In this document: piece after piece, positions 28,056-59,782 of the stretch
Position numbering within the stretch: the stretch's first letter is position 1
Layout of the letters: every line of letters begins with the position of its first letter
Assembly (NCBI GenBank): GCA_015063535.1
Contig: SVTY01000004.1
Location: 1 to 64,000, forward strand
Length of the DNA: 64,000 bases
From: Oscillospiraceae bacterium
GTDB lineage: Bacteria > Bacillota > Clostridia > Oscillospirales > CAG-272
Direction: 5' to 3'
Notes under the pieces: model-generated
What the model saw: the letters and a program-made list of their open reading frames with translations, nothing else
Database searches by the model: none
Told to the model about the DNA's origin: nothing
Position numbers and translations under genes: made by a program

Positions 28056-28121
28056 TTGACAGCCTGTGACCACCTTGAAGCATACAGTAAAAAATCTATT
28101 ACAGAAAAGAGGAATTTTTCT

Positions 28122-29216
28122 ATGACAAGAGAACAGGCGTGTGCCAAGATCAATGAAGCTCTGCAGGCGTATTTCGGCTACATCCCCGAGCAATGCGCTC
28201 CGTACGGGAGCGGTCACATCAACGATACCTTTTTGGTGGTGACAGACAAACGGTATATTTTGCAACGAATGAATACGACCGTCTTCCCCCATCCCGAGGA
28301 AATGATGGAGAATATCCACGGTGTGACGGGGCATATCCGTCAAAAAGCAGTGAAGCGGGGCGAGGATACCTCACGGGTCACGTTGACCGTTGTTCCCACG
28401 AAGGATGGAGCATGCTGCTTTGAGGACAGCATCGGTTCCTGGTGGCGTGTGTATGAATTTGTGGAGGGAACGGTCGCAAGAGATGTGGTGGAAAGTGCCG
28501 AGGATTTTACGATCTGCGCCGAGGCATTCGGAAAATTCCAGCAGGACTTGGCAGATTATCCCGCCGAAAAGCTACATGAGACCATTGTGAATTTCCATAA
28601 TACGCCTTGGCGATTTGAAAATCTGAAAAAGGCGGTAGAGAAGGATGTCTGCGGCAGACGTGCCGAGGTGGAACAGGAGATCTCCTTTGCTATGGAGCGG
28701 GAAGGATTTGCCCGTATGCTGGAGGAGGCGCATGCTGCGGGTAGCTTGCCTCTGCGTGTGACCCATAACGATACCAAGCTGAATAACATTCTGTTTGACG
28801 CAACGACAGGTGCGGCGGTCTGCGTGATCGACCTGGATACGGTCATGCCCGGATATTCGGTGAACGATTTCGGAGACTCCATTCGTTTCGGTGCCAATAC
28901 GGCAGTGGAGGACGAGACCGATCTGTCAAAGGTCTCCTTGGATCTTGCTTTGTTTGAAGCATATGCTAAGGGCTTTTTAAAGGGCTGCGGCGGTCGTTTG
29001 ACCGACACGGAGCTGGAGCTGTTGCCCGTGGGTGCCATGATGATGACCTTTGAATGCGGGATGCGCTTTTTGACCGACTATTTGGAGGGGGATACCTATT
29101 TCAAGATCCACCGTCCCAAGCACAATCTCGACCGTTGCCGCAATCAGTTTGCTTTGGTTGCCGATATGGAGCGAAAGCTACCCGAAATGCAGGCAATTAT
29201 CCAAAAGCTGAAATAA
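28122..29216 (+). CDS. APH-fold sugar kinase, N-acetylhexosamine 1-kinase (NahK)-like
   Basis: YGSGHINDTFLV, ILQRMNTTVFPHPE, VTHNDTKLNNILFD, VIDLDTVMPGY. Confidence 0.75.
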   Translation: MTREQACAKINEALQAYFGYIPEQCAPYGSGHINDTFLVVTDKRYILQRMNTTVFPHPEEMMENIHGVTGHIRQKAVKRGEDTSRVTLTVVPTKDGACCFEDSIGSWWRVYEFVEGTVARDVVESAEDFTICAEAFGKFQQDLADYPAEKLHETIVNFHNTPWRFENLKKAVEKDVCGRRAEVEQEISFAMEREGFARMLEEAHAAGSLPLRVTHNDTKLNNILFDATTGAAVCVIDLDTVMPGYSVNDFGDSIRFGANTAVEDETDLSKVSLDLALFEAYAKGFLKGCGGRLTDTELELLPVGAMMMTFECGMRFLTDYLEGDTYFKIHRPKHNLDRCRNQFALVADMERKLPEMQAIIQKLK

Positions 29217-29223
29217 CATAAGC

Positions 29224-29256
29224 AAAAAAGCTGTTCCGTGCGAACAGCTTTTTTGT
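29224..29256. terminator. Bidirectional terminator
   Basis: aaaaaagctgttcgtgcgaacagctttttt-type hairpin. Confidence 0.85.
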
Positions 29257-29298
29257 TTTCTCTTACTTATCCAATTGTACAAAATGTGTATAATTACT

Positions 29299-29421
29299 TT
29301 AATTTTTTTTGTTTTTGTTAAATTTTGAGACTTGATAGAGAATACAACCGAGCAAAGAAAAATGAGCAACTAAAAGACCAAAAAGGAACATATAAGCAAA
29401 AAAACCTAAAGCCATATTCAT
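29299..29421 (-). CDS. Small hydrophobic peptide B (40 aa) MNMALGFFAYMFLFGLLVAHFSLLGCILYQVSKFNKNKKN
   Basis: Read directly on minus strand; SD overlaps stop of peptide A; 3' half near-identical to peptide A. Confidence 0.7.
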   Translation of the reverse strand: MNMALGFFAYMFLFGLLVAHFSLLGCILYQVSKFNKNKKN

Positions 29422-29430
29422 AATAATCAC

Positions 29431-29538
29431 CTACTTATTTTTGTTAAATTTTGAAACTTGATAGAGAATACAACCGAGCAAAGAAAAATGAGCGGCTAAA
29501 AGACCAACAATCAATATAACAGGAGCTACTACTGCCAT
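29431..29538 (-). CDS. Small hydrophobic peptide A (35 aa) MAVVAPVILIVGLLAAHFSLLGCILYQVSKFNKNK
   Basis: AAGGAGGTGATTTTG-ATG; consensus promoter upstream. Confidence 0.75.
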   Translation of the reverse strand: MAVVAPVILIVGLLAAHFSLLGCILYQVSKFNKNK

Positions 29539-29578
29539 CAAAATCACCTCCTTAAAGATATTCTAAACTTCTAAACAT

Positions 29579-29607
29579 AATATATCATTAACTAAATTAA
29601 ATGTCAA
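29579..29607 (-). promoter_or_regulatory. Strong promoter for tandem small peptides
   Basis: TTGACA-N17-TATATT on minus strand. Confidence 0.8.
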
Positions 29608-29649
29608 GACTTCTCATTAAAGAAAAAGAATTTTTAAAAGATTTTTCTT

Positions 29650-30519
29650 TCATAGCAAGATATTCCTCTTATGTACGGTACCGACTTCAATGGTGCAATC
29701 GGTCTGTATGACCGCTCCCTCCGAAATGATCGCTCCGATGCTGTCGGCACAAATTTTTCCCGAACGGGGATTTTTGACCGAAACAATGTGTCCCTTGATC
29801 CGAGCATCTACCTCCGAATATTCGAAGGACAAGTCGGTGTCCTCCATGGTACAGTCGATCAGACGAAGCCCCTTGCAGTAGCATAACGGTTGTGTTCCCA
29901 CGATATGACAGCCGACAAGGGTGAGATCTTCCGAAAACCATCCCAAATATTCTCCCCGCAGCGTGGTGTTTGTCACCGTTACGTTTTTGGAATGCCAAAA
30001 GGCATCCTTGGTATCCAGTATGCTGTTCTCGATGGAGAGGTTTTCCATATATTGAAAGGAGTATTTTCCCTTCATTTGCAGGTTGCTGATCTCCACGTCT
30101 CGACTGTCAAAAAACAGATATTCCGATTCGATGCGGCAATTTCGTATATGCACGCCTTGGCATTTCCATCCGAACTCGGGGGAGAGGATCACCGAATCCT
30201 CGACGAGTGTGTCTGCGCATTCCCGCAGGCATTTGATGCCGTTGATGTGGCAATTACGGACGGTTCCTTGCTCGGTATACCAAATGGGTGCCCGTGTCGC
30301 TTCATCCATGGTCGAATCCGACAGGAGAAAGTCCTTGGCATGCCAAAGGGGGTATCGCAGAGAGAAGGTACACTGATGGACTCGCACCGAGCGGCATTCC
30401 TTCAGCACCGATTCTCCGTCGGCAGGTCCCGCAAAGGTGCAGCCCAGTACCTCGGCATTCCGCAAGCCGTACAAAGCTCTCTCTTCATCGTATTGTTGGT
30501 TTGAAATCGTTTGTTGCAT
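29650..30519 (-). CDS. DUF3737-like right-handed beta-helix protein
   Basis: Repeated short strands (HIRNCRIESEYLFFDSRDVEISNLQMKGKYSFQYMENLSIENS), characteristic of the family. Confidence 0.8.
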   Translation of the reverse strand: MQQTISNQQYDEERALYGLRNAEVLGCTFAGPADGESVLKECRSVRVHQCTFSLRYPLWHAKDFLLSDSTMDEATRAPIWYTEQGTVRNCHINGIKCLRECADTLVEDSVILSPEFGWKCQGVHIRNCRIESEYLFFDSRDVEISNLQMKGKYSFQYMENLSIENSILDTKDAFWHSKNVTVTNTTLRGEYLGWFSEDLTLVGCHIVGTQPLCYCKGLRLIDCTMEDTDLSFEYSEVDARIKGHIVSVKNPRSGKICADSIGAIISEGAVIQTDCTIEVGTVHKRNILL

Positions 30520-30757
30520 AGGATCCCTTTCCGAAAAGCTACCGCAGGACGGCAACCGAATTTGTCTGTAAGCCTATATAATTATATACGATTTTTCTTC
30601 TTTGTTTGTGAACACACTATGAAATTTATGAGCTTTTTAAGAAAAAATTTGAAAAAAGATAATTTTTTAACAAATAACTCTTGATATCTTTTGCAATTTG
30701 TGGTATAGTATTAGATGGTGTATTTTGAAAAAAATATTGAAAGGTGGATATACAAAC

Positions 30758-53397: not shown

Positions 53398-55764
53398 TTA
53401 TACAAGCTCAGTTGCGGAATTTATGAGGTTTCCAATCAGTTGCGTGCTGGAATTTCTATTCCATTCATTTCGATTACAAACAATTACAATTTTTTTCTTT
53501 GCTCTTGAAATGGCTGTATTGATGGTATATAGCCCTTGCGGCTTAGAGCTGTCGGTAAACCATTTGTTCCTGTAAGTATCAACGACACTGATGAAAACCG
53601 TATCCCATTCTCGTCCTTGCGAAGAATGGATCGTCAATATATTATCTACATCGGCGATAGCATGGAGCGTATCTATTATATATTTCCTTTGATCACGGTA
53701 TGGCGTTGTGATTACATAATCACCAGCTTGCAAATTGTTTCGCTCAATATAGCTTCGGATCGCTTTTGCTTCTCCCGAACTTTGCCTTTTTTCATCCTTG
53801 CTGTCCTTCTCTGCATGAATCACCGCTATTTCGGTGTTAAAATCGGATTGTCCTGTAAATCCGTTTTGATATACAAAAGCATCGAGTATCTGAGCTAAAT
53901 TGTTTCCAAAGCGGAATGTATGCGGTAAAAAGGCAACCGAAAGATTCGCAGGAAGCTCCAAAGCATTATTTTCGAATATAGAGAAAAGCATGTCTGTCGA
54001 AAAGCCTTTTTCAAAGATCATGGAAGAATAAATAGCAGATAAAGACCACAAAAAAATCTTTTGCTCTTGGTCATGAATGGTTTTCTCACCGGCTTCACAA
54101 ATTGGCGGTAACTGCATATGATCTCCCAATAAAGTCACAGGCGCACCTAATGAAAACAAAATGCCTGCTTTAATGAAAGGGCAATAGGCAGCCTCGTCTA
54201 AAAAAACATGGGCTATCAAATTTGATTGGATACCGATTTCGCCAAAGCTTTTAAAATGCGAAAAAAAGTAATCGACAGTAAACGCAAAGACTAATTTCCC
54301 ACTTACCTTTCTTGAAGCGTTTTCTTTTAAGGTCTGCAAACGTGATTCCTTTTCTTCGATGATCTGCGGCAGCAAGGGGTCAATTGTCACCTCGCTGAAG
54401 GTTGCGGCGATTTGCGTAAAATCCGTCATAGCCTCTTCTATTGTTCTGAAATGTTCGAGCACGGGAACGGCGATGCTCTTTGCCGATTCAAAGGTGGCAA
54501 GCATATCGGCTTCAAGCTCACAAGCAATTTGTTTTTTGTCATGTAAGGTATGATTTACAGCAGCTTGTTCATTTTCTTTCTCCGCAATGGTAGTGTTGCA
54601 AGAAGTGATTTTTGCAGCTACCAAATCTTTTTCCGAATGAAGGAAAGTGGCTTCTTTTTCGGTGAATAGTTTTTTTATCTTAAAAGAGAGGGATTCTTCA
54701 CGCCGTTTGATTTGAATTTCTTTTTTGCAAAGGTCTGACAGGGTCTGACGGAATGCAGGTATCTCATCGGAAAGAAGCGCAGCTCTTTTTTGCAGTTCTT
54801 CGATGCTTTCTTGGCAATCCTGTTGCTCTTCCGTTTTTTCTCTGTATGTAAGAGCCAGATCATGAAAAGCTTCGTAAGCTTTCAAAATCTCTTGCGCATC
54901 GGAAAAGTTTTTTTGTTGGCGTTTCAATTCTTTGATTTCATTTGTCAATGATTCTATTTGCTCTTGGCGGTCGATCGTATCGCAAATTTTTCCATATTCA
55001 TTGGAAAAAGATTGGGAAGAAATACCGGGACGATACAGGACGTCGATATCCTGTCCGGCTTCTTCCAAGGCGTGAATAACAGCACGAAGTGTCTGCTCAA
55101 TGGCATTGTTCGTCGGAGCCAGAATGAAGACTTGCTTTTTCTGTTTTATGTAGGACATAATACAGTTTGCCAATACGATTTGTGTTTTTCCCGTGCCGGG
55201 TGCTCCCCAAATATAGGATATCGGATTGAATAAAGCCGTTTGCACGGCTTTTATTTGATCCTCTGATTCATATCCTCTTGTATAGATATCCTCTTGCGTG
55301 AGGCATGGTATGGAGGGATAGCGGATATGATGACCGTATGTGAGATACCAAGAGCGGACTTTTTCAATTAGAAATTTTAAATCGGAAACAAAAACAATAT
55401 CATGAGGTGGTAATTGTGCAAATAAAGAAACCATATCAGATGTTACTTCTATGACAAGCTCTGCACGCTCATGATTGTTTTTTACGATTTTGAAATATTT
55501 GTTTGAAATGTATCGGTTTGGAAAATCTTCATACAGATCAGGGGGGATGAGAGACGAGTTGATACATAAACGAATATCATCGGTATGTTTTAATTTTTGC
55601 GAGAGGGAAATGCGCCACAGATTGGGAGCGATTGGCTGTATCCTTGTTGCATTGGCGGTGATTCTTGTATGCTTCGAGGTAATAGCACTTTGGTAATAAT
55701 TGTCAGCACTTTTTGCGGCATCACAAATATATTGCTTTACCTCATCCGAATATATAGCCGCCAT
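53398..55764 (-). CDS. UPF1/DNA2-like SF1 helicase with N-terminal uncharacterised domain and coiled-coil insert
   Basis: WGAPGTGKTQIVLANC, FLDEAAYCPF, LLGDHMQLPP, TIHSSQGREWDTVFISVV, NTAISRAKKK. Confidence 0.88.
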   Translation of the reverse strand: MAAIYSDEVKQYICDAAKSADNYYQSAITSKHTRITANATRIQPIAPNLWRISLSQKLKHTDDIRLCINSSLIPPDLYEDFPNRYISNKYFKIVKNNHERAELVIEVTSDMVSLFAQLPPHDIVFVSDLKFLIEKVRSWYLTYGHHIRYPSIPCLTQEDIYTRGYESEDQIKAVQTALFNPISYIWGAPGTGKTQIVLANCIMSYIKQKKQVFILAPTNNAIEQTLRAVIHALEEAGQDIDVLYRPGISSQSFSNEYGKICDTIDRQEQIESLTNEIKELKRQQKNFSDAQEILKAYEAFHDLALTYREKTEEQQDCQESIEELQKRAALLSDEIPAFRQTLSDLCKKEIQIKRREESLSFKIKKLFTEKEATFLHSEKDLVAAKITSCNTTIAEKENEQAAVNHTLHDKKQIACELEADMLATFESAKSIAVPVLEHFRTIEEAMTDFTQIAATFSEVTIDPLLPQIIEEKESRLQTLKENASRKVSGKLVFAFTVDYFFSHFKSFGEIGIQSNLIAHVFLDEAAYCPFIKAGILFSLGAPVTLLGDHMQLPPICEAGEKTIHDQEQKIFLWSLSAIYSSMIFEKGFSTDMLFSIFENNALELPANLSVAFLPHTFRFGNNLAQILDAFVYQNGFTGQSDFNTEIAVIHAEKDSKDEKRQSSGEAKAIRSYIERNNLQAGDYVITTPYRDQRKYIIDTLHAIADVDNILTIHSSQGREWDTVFISVVDTYRNKWFTDSSKPQGLYTINTAISRAKKKIVIVCNRNEWNRNSSTQLIGNLINSATELV

Positions 55765-55806
55765 GATTGAACTCTCCTTGTTGCAACGATGTTTTTTTAT
55801 AATTCT

Positions 55807-56232
55807 TTATCCCCCAAAGTTTTCGTCCGTTTCGGGAGCTTGTTGCATCTGCTCCCAGCGATCCTTTCGCATGTAGATAATTTCTTCGGGATGGTTGTCT
55901 GTCGATTGTGCTGCTGTGTAAAGGCGCACATAGCCCTCCATTTCAATGTCAAGCATACGGTCTACCGCCATTTGTATTTCCGATTGCGTACGATGTGCGG
56001 TAATTTTATGCGAATCAGGATTGTCCGTTCGTCCGAGAAGATAATCTACGGAACAGTCTAAATAGTCAGCAATGCGGGCGAGATTTTCACTTTTTGGTGT
56101 AGACCCACCAGACAGCATAGAAGAAAGTGCGTTTTTACTTAATCCACAACATACGAGCATATCTTTGATAATAATATTTTTGTTTTTGCAGAGTTCCTTT
56201 ATTCGACTTGCGATATCAGAGGAAATATACAT
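55807..56232 (-). CDS. XRE-family repressor (CI-like)
   Basis: IKDMLVCCGLSKNALSSMLSGGSTPKSENLARIADYLDCSVDYLLGRTD HTH. Confidence 0.92.
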   Translation of the reverse strand: MYISSDIASRIKELCKNKNIIIKDMLVCCGLSKNALSSMLSGGSTPKSENLARIADYLDCSVDYLLGRTDNPDSHKITAHRTQSEIQMAVDRMLDIEMEGYVRLYTAAQSTDNHPEEIIYMRKDRWEQMQQAPETDENFGG

Positions 56233-56301
56233 TTTTCAAATTCCTTTTGTTTGTGAAAAAATAAAAATCCAAAAAAAATTGGAAAATTTTTAAAAAAGCA
56301 C

Positions 56302-56330
56302 TTGACAATCCCAAAATTTTGGGATATAAT
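56302..56330 (+). promoter_or_regulatory. Early promoter with 18-bp palindromic operator in spacer
   Basis: TTGACA-(ATCCCAAAATTTTGGGA)-TATAAT; operator ATCCCAAAATTTTGGGAT 56308-56325. Confidence 0.85.
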
Positions 56331-56401
56331 ATAACCGTGGCAAGTTGCTAAGTTAATTTTACCACAAAATAAGAAAGATGTCAAGAAAAAGGAGAGGGAA
56401 A

Positions 56402-57007
56402 ATGACTTTTTATGAAATGTTTACGATTGATATTGACATGTGTGTCAGCGGGGCGGTTGTTGGAAGCTATACGGTTGAGCATTATATCAGCTTGATGCAA
56501 GAAGCGATATGTGGTTTTAGCGCGAGTTTTTGCGGAGCCTCGCATGATATGACGGAAAAAGGCAGGAGAATAATCTTTGTGGAATTAAAAAACAGATATA
56601 ACGTTTTTTATAAAATGGTTGAAAAAGAAAGAAAAGAAGCTGTTCGAGCATGGCTTGCTGAAAAAGTTGGGAAACAAACAAATTTTGAAAGAATCTCCGC
56701 AAGCAAGGAAGCTTATGCACGTTTTGCGAGCATGTTGGAGCAATATTACGCTGTCGAAGACTTTGAACGTTTGGAATCTAACTTTATGGAACTTTGCTCG
56801 GAGGTGTACACCGGTGATGAGTTGGAGTATTGCAAACGAATTTTTGACGCTTGTAAAGTAAGAATAAAATCGCCAGAGGTGTTGGAACAAATAGTACAAA
56901 CAAATATAAGTCGTCACGCTGATATCGTTGACTTTCCGGAAGACTATATACTTCCGACAAGCTATGACCATATAAAGCCTAATTTAAGAAAAGATTTATA
57001 TTTTTAA
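56402..57007 (+). CDS. Hypothetical early protein
   Basis: ORF after operator promoter, RBS ggagagg. Confidence 0.7.
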   Translation: MTFYEMFTIDIDMCVSGAVVGSYTVEHYISLMQEAICGFSASFCGASHDMTEKGRRIIFVELKNRYNVFYKMVEKERKEAVRAWLAEKVGKQTNFERISASKEAYARFASMLEQYYAVEDFERLESNFMELCSEVYTGDELEYCKRIFDACKVRIKSPEVLEQIVQTNISRHADIVDFPEDYILPTSYDHIKPNLRKDLYF

Positions 57008-57027
57008 GTAAAAAAGGCGGTGAAAGT

Positions 57028-57258
57028 ATGGAAGATAAAAACATTCGATTTATGATTCTTAGGGAGACGCTATTACAGCTACAAATTTGCTGCAATCTTT
57101 CGCCGGAAGAAATGAAGGATAGAAAAAAGGAAGTAGAAAAACTACTTCCTTTTGCGGGAACTCGGTTGGGATGGCAGATAGAATTGGAGCGTGAAGGTTT
57201 TGCACCTGTACCCTGCGCAGATGATAAAGAATATTGGCATTATGTTTGCTTTTGTTAG
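57028..57258 (+). CDS. Hypothetical early protein (76 aa)
   Basis: ORF with RBS ggcggtg; follows 56402 gene. Confidence 0.55.
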   Translation: MEDKNIRFMILRETLLQLQICCNLSPEEMKDRKKEVEKLLPFAGTRLGWQIELEREGFAPVPCADDKEYWHYVCFC

Positions 57259-57872
57259 GATTTTATACGGGCATTGGCTTCTTTGATTATCAGTTCAGCC
57301 TCAATTAAATCGCATAAACTACGATACGTAATTATTGCATCTTTTACTGAAATGTTTTCATGGTGCGTAATGTGTATTTCACGATTGCCGTAAATTCGAA
57401 GCAATTGACTACATACTTTTGTGTAAGGTTGGACATTCATACGCTCAATTTGTTGGTCAAGTTTGAGCTTTAAGACATCTTTTTCATCTATCCCTTGTAT
57501 TTTTGTTAAATAATCCAATACTAATCTTTCCAATGTCATACGCAGACCTGCACCAACGAGTGTATTCAGTCCGTTTGCGTGTGCTTGCAGTGTTTGTTCG
57601 AATATTTGAAAAGCATCGGGGGATAGCGTTTTTACATGAACAGGATATTTGATCAAATTATTGCAAGGATAGTATTGAACAATTATCTCGCCGGATGGAA
57701 TGGTATTTTTCCAATGCTGCTCTTTGATTATAAAAATTGGCATACCACAATGTACGCAATCGTGGTGTTCGGCACAATACCCTATCTCACTGTTGATTCG
57801 TTTGAATATGCTTTGGATGCGTTTGGGGCTGTTATCTTTACCGCAATAAGGACACATTTCTGGGAATTTCAT
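57255..57872 (-). CDS. DUF4145-like protein with N-terminal Cys zinc-binding motifs
   Basis: CPYCGK...CVHCGMP; GAGLRMTLERLVLDYLTK helical core. Confidence 0.65.
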   Translation of the reverse strand: MKFPEMCPYCGKDNSPKRIQSIFKRINSEIGYCAEHHDCVHCGMPIFIIKEQHWKNTIPSGEIIVQYYPCNNLIKYPVHVKTLSPDAFQIFEQTLQAHANGLNTLVGAGLRMTLERLVLDYLTKIQGIDEKDVLKLKLDQQIERMNVQPYTKVCSQLLRIYGNREIHITHHENISVKDAIITYRSLCDLIEAELIIKEANARIKS

Positions 57873-58021
57873 AAATTACCTCTATATACTTTGATTTTTG
57901 TATTTTTAGGGGATAAGTTTACAGTAAAGGGTGTGACGATACTCAGAGCTTCTTTCGTAGTAGAGGTTTTGGTCATTCGGCTTTCCAGTACTTTGAGATT
58001 GAGTTTATTAAGCTGTTTCAT
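57869..58021 (-). CDS. Small protein translationally coupled upstream of DUF4145-like gene
   Basis: Stop overlaps next start (ATGA-type); own promoter upstream. Confidence 0.55.
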   Translation of the reverse strand: MKQLNKLNLKVLESRMTKTSTTKEALSIVTPFTVNLSPKNTKIKVYRGNL

Positions 58022-58050
58022 ATGATTCTCGCTTTCTTTATCATGGAAAC

Positions 58051-58079
58051 AGTATATCATAAAAAAAGTCAATTGTCAA
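58051..58079 (-). promoter_or_regulatory. Promoter of the reverse-strand DUF4145-like unit
   Basis: TTGACA-N17-TATACT on minus strand. Confidence 0.75.
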
Positions 58080-58098
58080 CTGAAAGGAGGAGGAAGCA

Positions 58099-58314
58099 AT
58101 GAAATTCCGATTAAAAAACGATGAAGGCATAGAGCTGCACTTAGATTTACAAGAGAGGGAGTTGCTCTATGATGCACTGCGGCATTATTCCGCTTACGGA
58201 GAGAATCAAGATCGGATTCTCGATCAGATACCGAAATTATGCGAGATATTAAACGTATTGGATACCCCTGCGTTTTCTTCGCATAAAAAATATATCAAAA
58301 AAGAAAAGGAGTAA
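58099..58314 (+). CDS. Small phage protein
   Basis: RBS aaaggagg; coding-like. Confidence 0.6.
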   Translation: MKFRLKNDEGIELHLDLQERELLYDALRHYSAYGENQDRILDQIPKLCEILNVLDTPAFSSHKKYIKKEKE

Positions 58315-58319
58315 AAGAA

Positions 58320-58520
58320 ATGGTAAACGGACAAAGAATCAAGGAGCTGATGCTGGCGAAAGGCATGGACAGCAGAGATCTGGCAGAGCGGATCGGAATC
58401 AGTGCGCCGATGATGAGCTACATCATCCGCAATCTGAGGGATACGAATGTGACGACGCTGGTGCGGATCGCACGGATCTTAGAGGTACCCGTAGACGAGC
58501 TGATCGTAAAGGAAGGATGA
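58320..58520 (+). CDS. XRE-family HTH protein (Cro-like)
   Basis: IKELMLAKGMDSRDLAERIGISAPMMSYIIRNLRDTNVTTLVRIARILEVPVDELI. Confidence 0.88.
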   Translation: MVNGQRIKELMLAKGMDSRDLAERIGISAPMMSYIIRNLRDTNVTTLVRIARILEVPVDELIVKEG

Positions 58521-58533
58521 AAGGAGAAAAGTC

Positions 58534-58680
58534 ATGACAAAAATGACAGTAGAAATAGAAGCAGCGGAGGGCTGCGTGTTGGACGTAGAGAAAATCAAGG
58601 ACTATCTTGCGGATATTTTCAGAATGGAAGGCGTAGACGGTGTAAAAATTATAGGAAAACAAGAAGGAGAGGACGAATGA
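58534..58680 (+). CDS. Small phage protein (48 aa)
   Basis: RBS aaggag; stop overlaps next start ATGA. Confidence 0.6.
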   Translation: MTKMTVEIEAAEGCVLDVEKIKDYLADIFRMEGVDGVKIIGKQEGEDE

Positions 58681-59033
58681 AAAGCAAATGGATGGTGCTC
58701 ACCAATTATTTCGGAAACGAGGAGCGATATATCGTATATCGACTTCTGAATGAGAAGGATGTGATGCACGCAGGCAATGTGGAGACCCACGGTCGATATA
58801 TGTTCGACCGAAACGAAGCCAAGAGCTTGGCAGATAAGCTGAATCGAATCGAACAATTGAGGAGCTTTCGGCAAGCCAAGGGGCTGACAAAGCCGGAGAT
58901 GGCAGATCGACTCGGTGTAACGCTTTCTCTGTATGAAAAGGTGGAAGGAGGGCATGCGGGCGTGTCGGCGAAATTTATGCGCAAAATGAAAAGCGTTTTT
59001 CCCGAGGTGAATATTGATAAAATGTTCTTTTAG
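58677..59033 (+). CDS. HTH (XRE-like) phage protein
   Basis: LRSFRQAKGLTKPEMADRLGVTLSLYEKVEGG. Confidence 0.8.
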   Translation: MKSKWMVLTNYFGNEERYIVYRLLNEKDVMHAGNVETHGRYMFDRNEAKSLADKLNRIEQLRSFRQAKGLTKPEMADRLGVTLSLYEKVEGGHAGVSAKFMRKMKSVFPEVNIDKMFF

Positions 59034-59107
59034 GGGAAAGCTGTTGGTTGTAGGACAAGTTCGGACAAACATATACTTCAATATCAAAAGAAAGAGAGGG
59101 AGACCGT

Positions 59108-59269
59108 ATGGGAAGAAACACAAGAGAACCGAAGATCACGTTTGTCAATCAGCCGGATCCGAAGTACATATGGGAGGTGCTTTGCGATCTGCTGAATCGG
59201 CAGGATCCGGAGTATGAATATCGCTTGGTACCGAGGGACAGCAAAAAGAAAGAAAAGCAAGACGGATAA
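59108..59269 (+). CDS. Small phage protein (53 aa)
   Basis: ATG after gagagggag RBS; MGRNTREPKITFVNQPDPKYIWEVLCDLLNRQDPEYEYRL. Confidence 0.6.
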   Translation: MGRNTREPKITFVNQPDPKYIWEVLCDLLNRQDPEYEYRLVPRDSKKKEKQDG

Positions 59270-59303: not shown

Positions 59304-59630
59304 ATGATGACGGAAAAAAGAAGGGAAGAACGCAGACTGGAGCTCATTGATGAGCTGAGAGAAGAGTTGGAGGTATCAGACGGCGAGCTGGAGCGCATCG
59401 TTGACCGTTTGGTTGACTCGGAGTACCGCAAAGAGAGGCACGGGGCGTGGATCTTTGACGATCACTATACGTCGCACAAATATGTGCGTTGGGTCTGCTC
59501 CGCATGTACGCATTGGCAGTCGGCGCAGAGGCATATCATGTCCGAGCAGATCTTCTATATGAATTACTGCCCGTTCTGCGGCTCACAGATGGACAAGCCG
59601 GAGAGAAAGACATCGGAGGACTCGCTATGA
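59304..59630 (+). CDS. Zinc-ribbon phage protein
   Basis: WVCSACTHW...NYCPFCGSQM. Confidence 0.7.
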   Translation: MMTEKRREERRLELIDELREELEVSDGELERIVDRLVDSEYRKERHGAWIFDDHYTSHKYVRWVCSACTHWQSAQRHIMSEQIFYMNYCPFCGSQMDKPERKTSEDSL

Positions 59631-59782
59631 CAGAGATGCTTGGCGGATTGATCCTTGGCGCCATTTTGGTCGTATTGATTGCGACCTTGGTACATAGCTG
59701 GATCGAGGACGGAGAAGAGAACGGCATTGTGGATCTGCGGGAGCCCGAGGATGCGGAGTGGGATGATGAAGAAGAGGAATAA
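59627..59782 (+). CDS. Small single-TM acidic-tail phage protein
   Basis: ATGA overlap; LGGLILGAILVVLIATLVHSWI then acidic tail. Confidence 0.6.
   Translation: MTEMLGGLILGAILVVLIATLVHSWIEDGEENGIVDLREPEDAEWDDEEEE

Follow-up and report, generated by a model that had tools for sequence, protein, structure and literature searches.

A compact tandem pair of predicted small membrane protein genes, probably expressed, in an intergenic gap of an Oscillospiraceae genome

The window (i.e., the whole stretch of DNA analyzed here, 64,000 nucleotides in length) contains a 434-nt intergenic gap, bounded by a DUF3737 gene (29650-30555) and by the end of a convergent APH-like kinase gene (28056-29216), with a GC content of 28% as compared to 50% for the window. 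A tandem pair of tiny ORFs, designated p1 and p2, is located on the minus strand of this gap, with the following features:

29579..29607, minus strand: promoter, TTGACA (29607-29602), 17-nt spacer and TATATT (29584-29579), with an extended -10 (TGA before TATATT)
near 29572, minus strand: predicted transcript start of the p1-p2 unit
29543..29553, minus strand: Shine-Dalgarno of p1, AAGGAGGTGAT, an 11-nt exact match
29431..29538, minus strand: p1, 35-aa single-TM peptide MAVVAPVILIVGLLAAHFSLLGCILYQVSKFNKNK, stop TAG at 29433-29431
29435..29518: direct repeat of 84 nt, p1 copy
29426..29436, minus strand: Shine-Dalgarno of p2, AAGTAGGTGAT, overlapping the p1 stop
29299..29421, minus strand: p2, 40-aa single-TM peptide MNMALGFFAYMFLFGLLVAHFSLLGCILYQVSKFNKNKKN, stop TAA at 29301-29299
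29309..29392: direct repeat of 84 nt, p2 copy, 90% identical, start-to-start spacing 126
29220..29258, both strands: two-way intrinsic terminator common to p1-p2 (minus) and the convergent kinase gene (plus)
p1/p2 motif: AHFSLLGCILYQVSKFNK

Both ORFs were recovered with the sequences and coordinates given in the original prediction, the span of which (29299-29607) begins at the p2 stop and extends up to the -35 box. The strong promoter it had proposed (TTGACA-N17-TATATT) scored 11/12, which was significant as compared to shuffles of the AT-rich region (P = 0.002), and is one of 15 sites with scores of at least 11/12 in the 64 kb. The predicted transcription unit (~350 nt) has a leader (5' UTR) of about 34 nt and is closed by the terminator, which is a strong one. 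The two best Shine-Dalgarno sequences of any hydrophobic ORF (18-60 aa) in the window belong to p1 and p2, with exact matches of 11 and 7 nt, respectively, and a next best match of 6 nt; p2 also contains an alternative in-frame ATG at 29415. The overlap of the second Shine-Dalgarno with the p1 stop, which had likewise been predicted, makes translational coupling of p1 to p2 possible. The original prediction had staked itself on the presence of a translation signal, and those of p1 and p2 are excellent. Overall, these data indicate that p1-p2 very probably represents a predicted bicistronic transcription unit for small membrane proteins, and that p1 and p2 are probably a real, compact pair of small membrane protein genes, predicted to be expressed.

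The near-identity of the 3' halves and the divergence of the N-termini, both noted previously, are confirmed by the 84-nt repeat, which covers the C-terminal half of both p1 and p2, while the N-terminal halves showed no measurable likeness at the DNA level (alignment P = 0.15). Across 24 aligned codons, four of the five nucleotide differences fall at third positions (P = 0.045) and the fifth falls at a second position; the sole amino acid change, A to V, is conservative. This pattern, from five differences, hints at purifying selection acting on the shared protein half. The hydrophobicity of the p1 N-terminal half far exceeds what its base composition would give (P = 0.001), and that of the p2 N-terminal half is no higher than expected from its T-rich composition (P = 0.34). 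As a shared fit to 16S rRNA could account for the likeness of the two ribosome-binding regions, the duplication may involve the 3' part only.

AlphaFold2, run with a two-row alignment, predicted one continuous helix (residues 3-39; mean pLDDT 87), a prediction that rests on two sequences and that would be helical anyway for an isolated hydrophobic 40-mer. The maximal 17-residue Kyte-Doolittle (KD) means were 2.47 and 2.32 for the 35-aa and 40-aa peptides, respectively. Both peptides end in a basic, Lys/Asn-rich tail, KFNKNK(KN). Under the positive-inside rule, the end of a membrane protein that carries a basic tail is placed inside, and the C-termini of p1 and p2 are thus predicted to face the cytoplasm. 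The sequence of the conserved half shows an i+3/i+4 periodicity of small or polar residues (G, A, S, G/C, Y, S), which suggests a face suited to helix packing, with a putative function in such contacts. That it is the C-terminal and not the N-terminal half that is conserved points towards a specific contact; the pattern would be accounted for equally well by gene conversion or a recent partial duplication.

Relatives of p1 and p2 were sought in roughly 1,000 genomes, which cover the genus, family, order and class to which this genome belongs. Protein and profile searches (59 near relatives as well as 396 order, 392 class and 297 family genomes) found no homologues beyond the two self matches. 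Matches below self (E 0.0017-10 per genome) were inspected or were at chance level; those that were translated lay in the wrong frame of a larger gene, lacked a start or were interrupted by stops, and one apparent tandem small-peptide locus (L006) was the end of an ABC transporter permease. A pattern scan of 85,462 GTDB species genomes yielded 30 stretches with 8-residue words, none of which was confirmed. Phage and plasmid records contained no relative at the protein or DNA level, the lone plasmid match (E = 6) being located inside another gene. The p1-p2 DNA is not repeated elsewhere in its own genome (about 84% complete), solved structures gave no match to p1 or p2, and no riboswitch or known RNA family was found at p1-p2. 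The unit was also absent from orthologous neighbourhoods in relatives, both downstream of the kinase and downstream of DUF3737, and 80 DUF3737 loci from named MAGs held no similar peptide. The homologue with a conserved frame on which the original prediction had also relied was not found in the collections searched, for which p1-p2 appears, on sequence comparison, to be a species-level orphan.

The neighbours of p1-p2 are DUF3737, the APH-like kinase, a GFO/IDH/MocA oxidoreductase and pgk/tpi. The DUF3737 gene, on the minus strand, encodes a beta-helix-like protein and adjoins pgk; its neighbourhood varies among relatives (L108-L187), which are mostly gut Clostridia MAGs, where the protein is common. 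These relatives suggest that the genome analyzed here is likewise of a gut-type Clostridia. Elsewhere in the window, the region 53398-59123 resembles a mobile or defence-type island, with genes named by eye only: a 788-aa P-loop helicase-like ORF (53398-55764, minus strand), an XRE-like regulator in a second low-GC stretch (55807-56232, minus strand) and a small HTH-like ORF (58677-59033, plus strand), together with two near-perfect promoters close to each other on opposite strands (56302, plus; 56384, minus). A 51-aa ORF with a Shine-Dalgarno (59627-59782, plus strand) encodes one strong TM helix, after which comes a highly acidic tail (MTEMLGGLILGAILVVLIATLVHSWIEDGEENGIVDLREPEDAEWDDEEEE), and has no Pfam match.

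We hypothesize that one probably constitutive bicistronic unit would yield two paralogous small membrane proteins, each consisting of a single transmembrane helix with a predicted N-out/C-in topology and a cytoplasmic Lys/Asn-rich tail. Through its small/polar stripe, the C-terminal half common to both (GLL.AHFSLLGCILYQVSKFNKNK) may pack against itself, against its sister or against a larger membrane protein, the activity of which would be tuned by the p1 or p2 helix. The second gene would have arisen when at least the 3' half was duplicated, after which the N-terminal halves diverged, unless they came from elsewhere. The directly observed parts of this best explanation are the duplication, promoter, ribosome-binding sites, hydrophobic ORFs, terminator and predicted helix. 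We consider the chances about even that p1 and p2 are translated, adopt this topology and function as membrane-embedded helices that act by binding partner proteins within the bilayer. Two points count against this explanation: no gene for a membrane partner is adjacent, and the collections searched hold no homologue that would show a conserved frame across species.

The main rival to action by membrane contacts is a toxic, type I toxin-like peptide pair, in which overproduced peptide would insert into and depolarize the membrane and a plus-strand antisense or trans RNA would silence it. We consider this unlikely, while acknowledging that peptides of 35-40 aa with one TM helix, a positive C-terminal tail, one Cys and a duplicated arrangement fit published descriptions of such toxins. 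Most type I toxins have a TM helix, a cytosolic positive C-terminus and an occasional Cys, with no sequence conservation (PMC8309996), and those of C. difficile are membrane-associated proteins of 34-47 aa with a positive tail, some of them duplicated and some unannotated (PMC7699646). Apart from this peptide shape (a small, hydrophobic, single-TM peptide with a charged tail), the signature of a type I locus is missing at p1-p2. The weak plus-strand pair that had been proposed as a possible antisense promoter (TTGTTA-N17-GAGAAT) is indeed present in both copies, because the DNA was duplicated; it scores 8/12, and the number of plus-strand 8/12 sites in the gap (5, as compared to 3.4 +/- 1.8 expected; P = 0.26) is at chance level, leaving an antisense RNA unsupported. 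No plus-strand promoter of at least 9/12 occurs within 29000-29900, and the only candidate for a plus-strand terminator past p1/p2 is a 5-pair stem at 29757. Scoring of 12 promoter positions on the plus strand thus revealed no antisense RNA gene overlapping or adjoining p1/p2. Nor was there a leader or mRNA structure that would limit translation: folding of the mRNA was no stronger than that of shuffles (z = 0.09), the two start regions were less folded than average (z = 1.07 and 1.38), and no structure beyond chance masks the p1 and p2 starts, a feature that not all type I systems need. A strong promoter with a perfect Shine-Dalgarno and little mRNA structure would be dangerous for a toxin gene that lacks a strong antisense RNA. 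Furthermore, no toxin or defence family in Pfam, NCBIfam, PHROGs or PADLOC exceeded its cut-off for p1 or p2, and the neighbours are housekeeping genes rather than a prophage. The original prediction, which had left the choice between a type I toxin and a small membrane protein, thus holds for tandem single-TM peptides with a promoter and ribosome-binding sites, and its toxin part is not supported, as the antisense promoter is at chance level, a masking structure and a toxin family are lacking and the neighbourhood is one of housekeeping genes.

It is improbable that p1 and p2 are small accessory subunits of a transporter encoded elsewhere (of the NF045580, MetS or MgtS/KdpF type). One weak match, L086, is a genuine NF045580 member (E 1.8e-16) in which LSMLGCIIYGIFNWNKGN resembles FSLLGCILYQVSKFNKNK, and p1 showed a sub-threshold match to MgtS (NF033842; 14.8 bits, cut-off 35 bits; no match for p2). 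Against this, the L086 match (E 0.066 per genome, 396 genomes) is of the strength expected by chance, the NF045580 model (cut-off 35 bits) matched neither p1 nor p2, and no transporter is adjacent, an AI-2E family gene being 5 kb away. NF045580 was also absent from the own genome, and no member over the cut-off was found in 119 order genomes. L086 was therefore rejected as a relative of p1/p2, its similarity being within chance and its family not found in the own genome. In its own right, L086 (G401:C20) is a symporter small accessory protein (60 bits) from a genome of the same order, in which 0 of 119 sampled genomes had a member over the cut-off.

We also assign a low probability to there being no functional gene pair, i.e., to AT-rich intergenic DNA that was duplicated recently, or to a non-coding RNA, the ORFs having arisen by chance. 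The lack of homologues in the collections searched fits this possibility, as does the ease with which a T-rich strand yields hydrophobic codons (see the p2 N-terminal half above). The combination of a promoter, two Shine-Dalgarno sequences, the stop overlap, third-position differences and a terminator argues against chance ORFs, and a non-coding RNA is disfavoured by the ordinary fold and the lack of an RNA family.

The two peptides may alternatively form a hetero-oligomer, or an effector and its inhibitor, with an identical partner-binding half and different membrane-entry halves, as a lineage-specific, self-neutralizing pair born of a partial duplication inside one operon; we regard this as very improbable. 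An exported pair (e.g., leaderless bacteriocin-like) would match the tandem, paralogous, short cationic peptides with strong expression signals, but is highly implausible, as the shared half contains an extended hydrophobic segment instead of an amphipathic cationic helix, and neither an immunity nor an export gene adjoins the pair.

If translated, p1-p2 would represent a clean case of a gene pair that is young, restricted to its lineage, equipped with a full set of expression signals and invisible to homology-based annotation, as well as a small test case for the origin of membrane micropeptides via partial tandem duplication. No broader biological rule rests on it.

Among known systems, p1-p2 resembles the C. 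difficile prophage type I toxins (CD0977.1, CD0956.2/3, CD0904.1; PMC7699646) in size, hydrophobic helix, positive tail and duplication, and differs from them in being located outside a prophage, with neither an antisense signal nor a sequence match; moreover, p1-p2 comprises two ORFs in one operon, while the C. difficile toxins form separate toxin-RNA pairs. The duplicated type I locus ZorO/ZorP of E. coli O157:H7 also encodes duplicated small hydrophobic proteins; each zor gene pairs with its own Orz RNA (PMC3919570), whereas p1-p2 has one promoter and no RNA gene was seen there. MgtS (NF033842 / PF22865; about 31-35 aa, single TM) is similar in that "GLLAAHFS" falls on the sub-threshold match of p1; p1/p2, on the other hand, have a basic tail and are found outside any mgtA or Mg2+ context. 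With NF045580, the model of which misses p1/p2, which is absent from the own genome and whose symporter is not next door, p1/p2 share a short TM helix with LGCI-Y and an N-K-rich end located just past the membrane.
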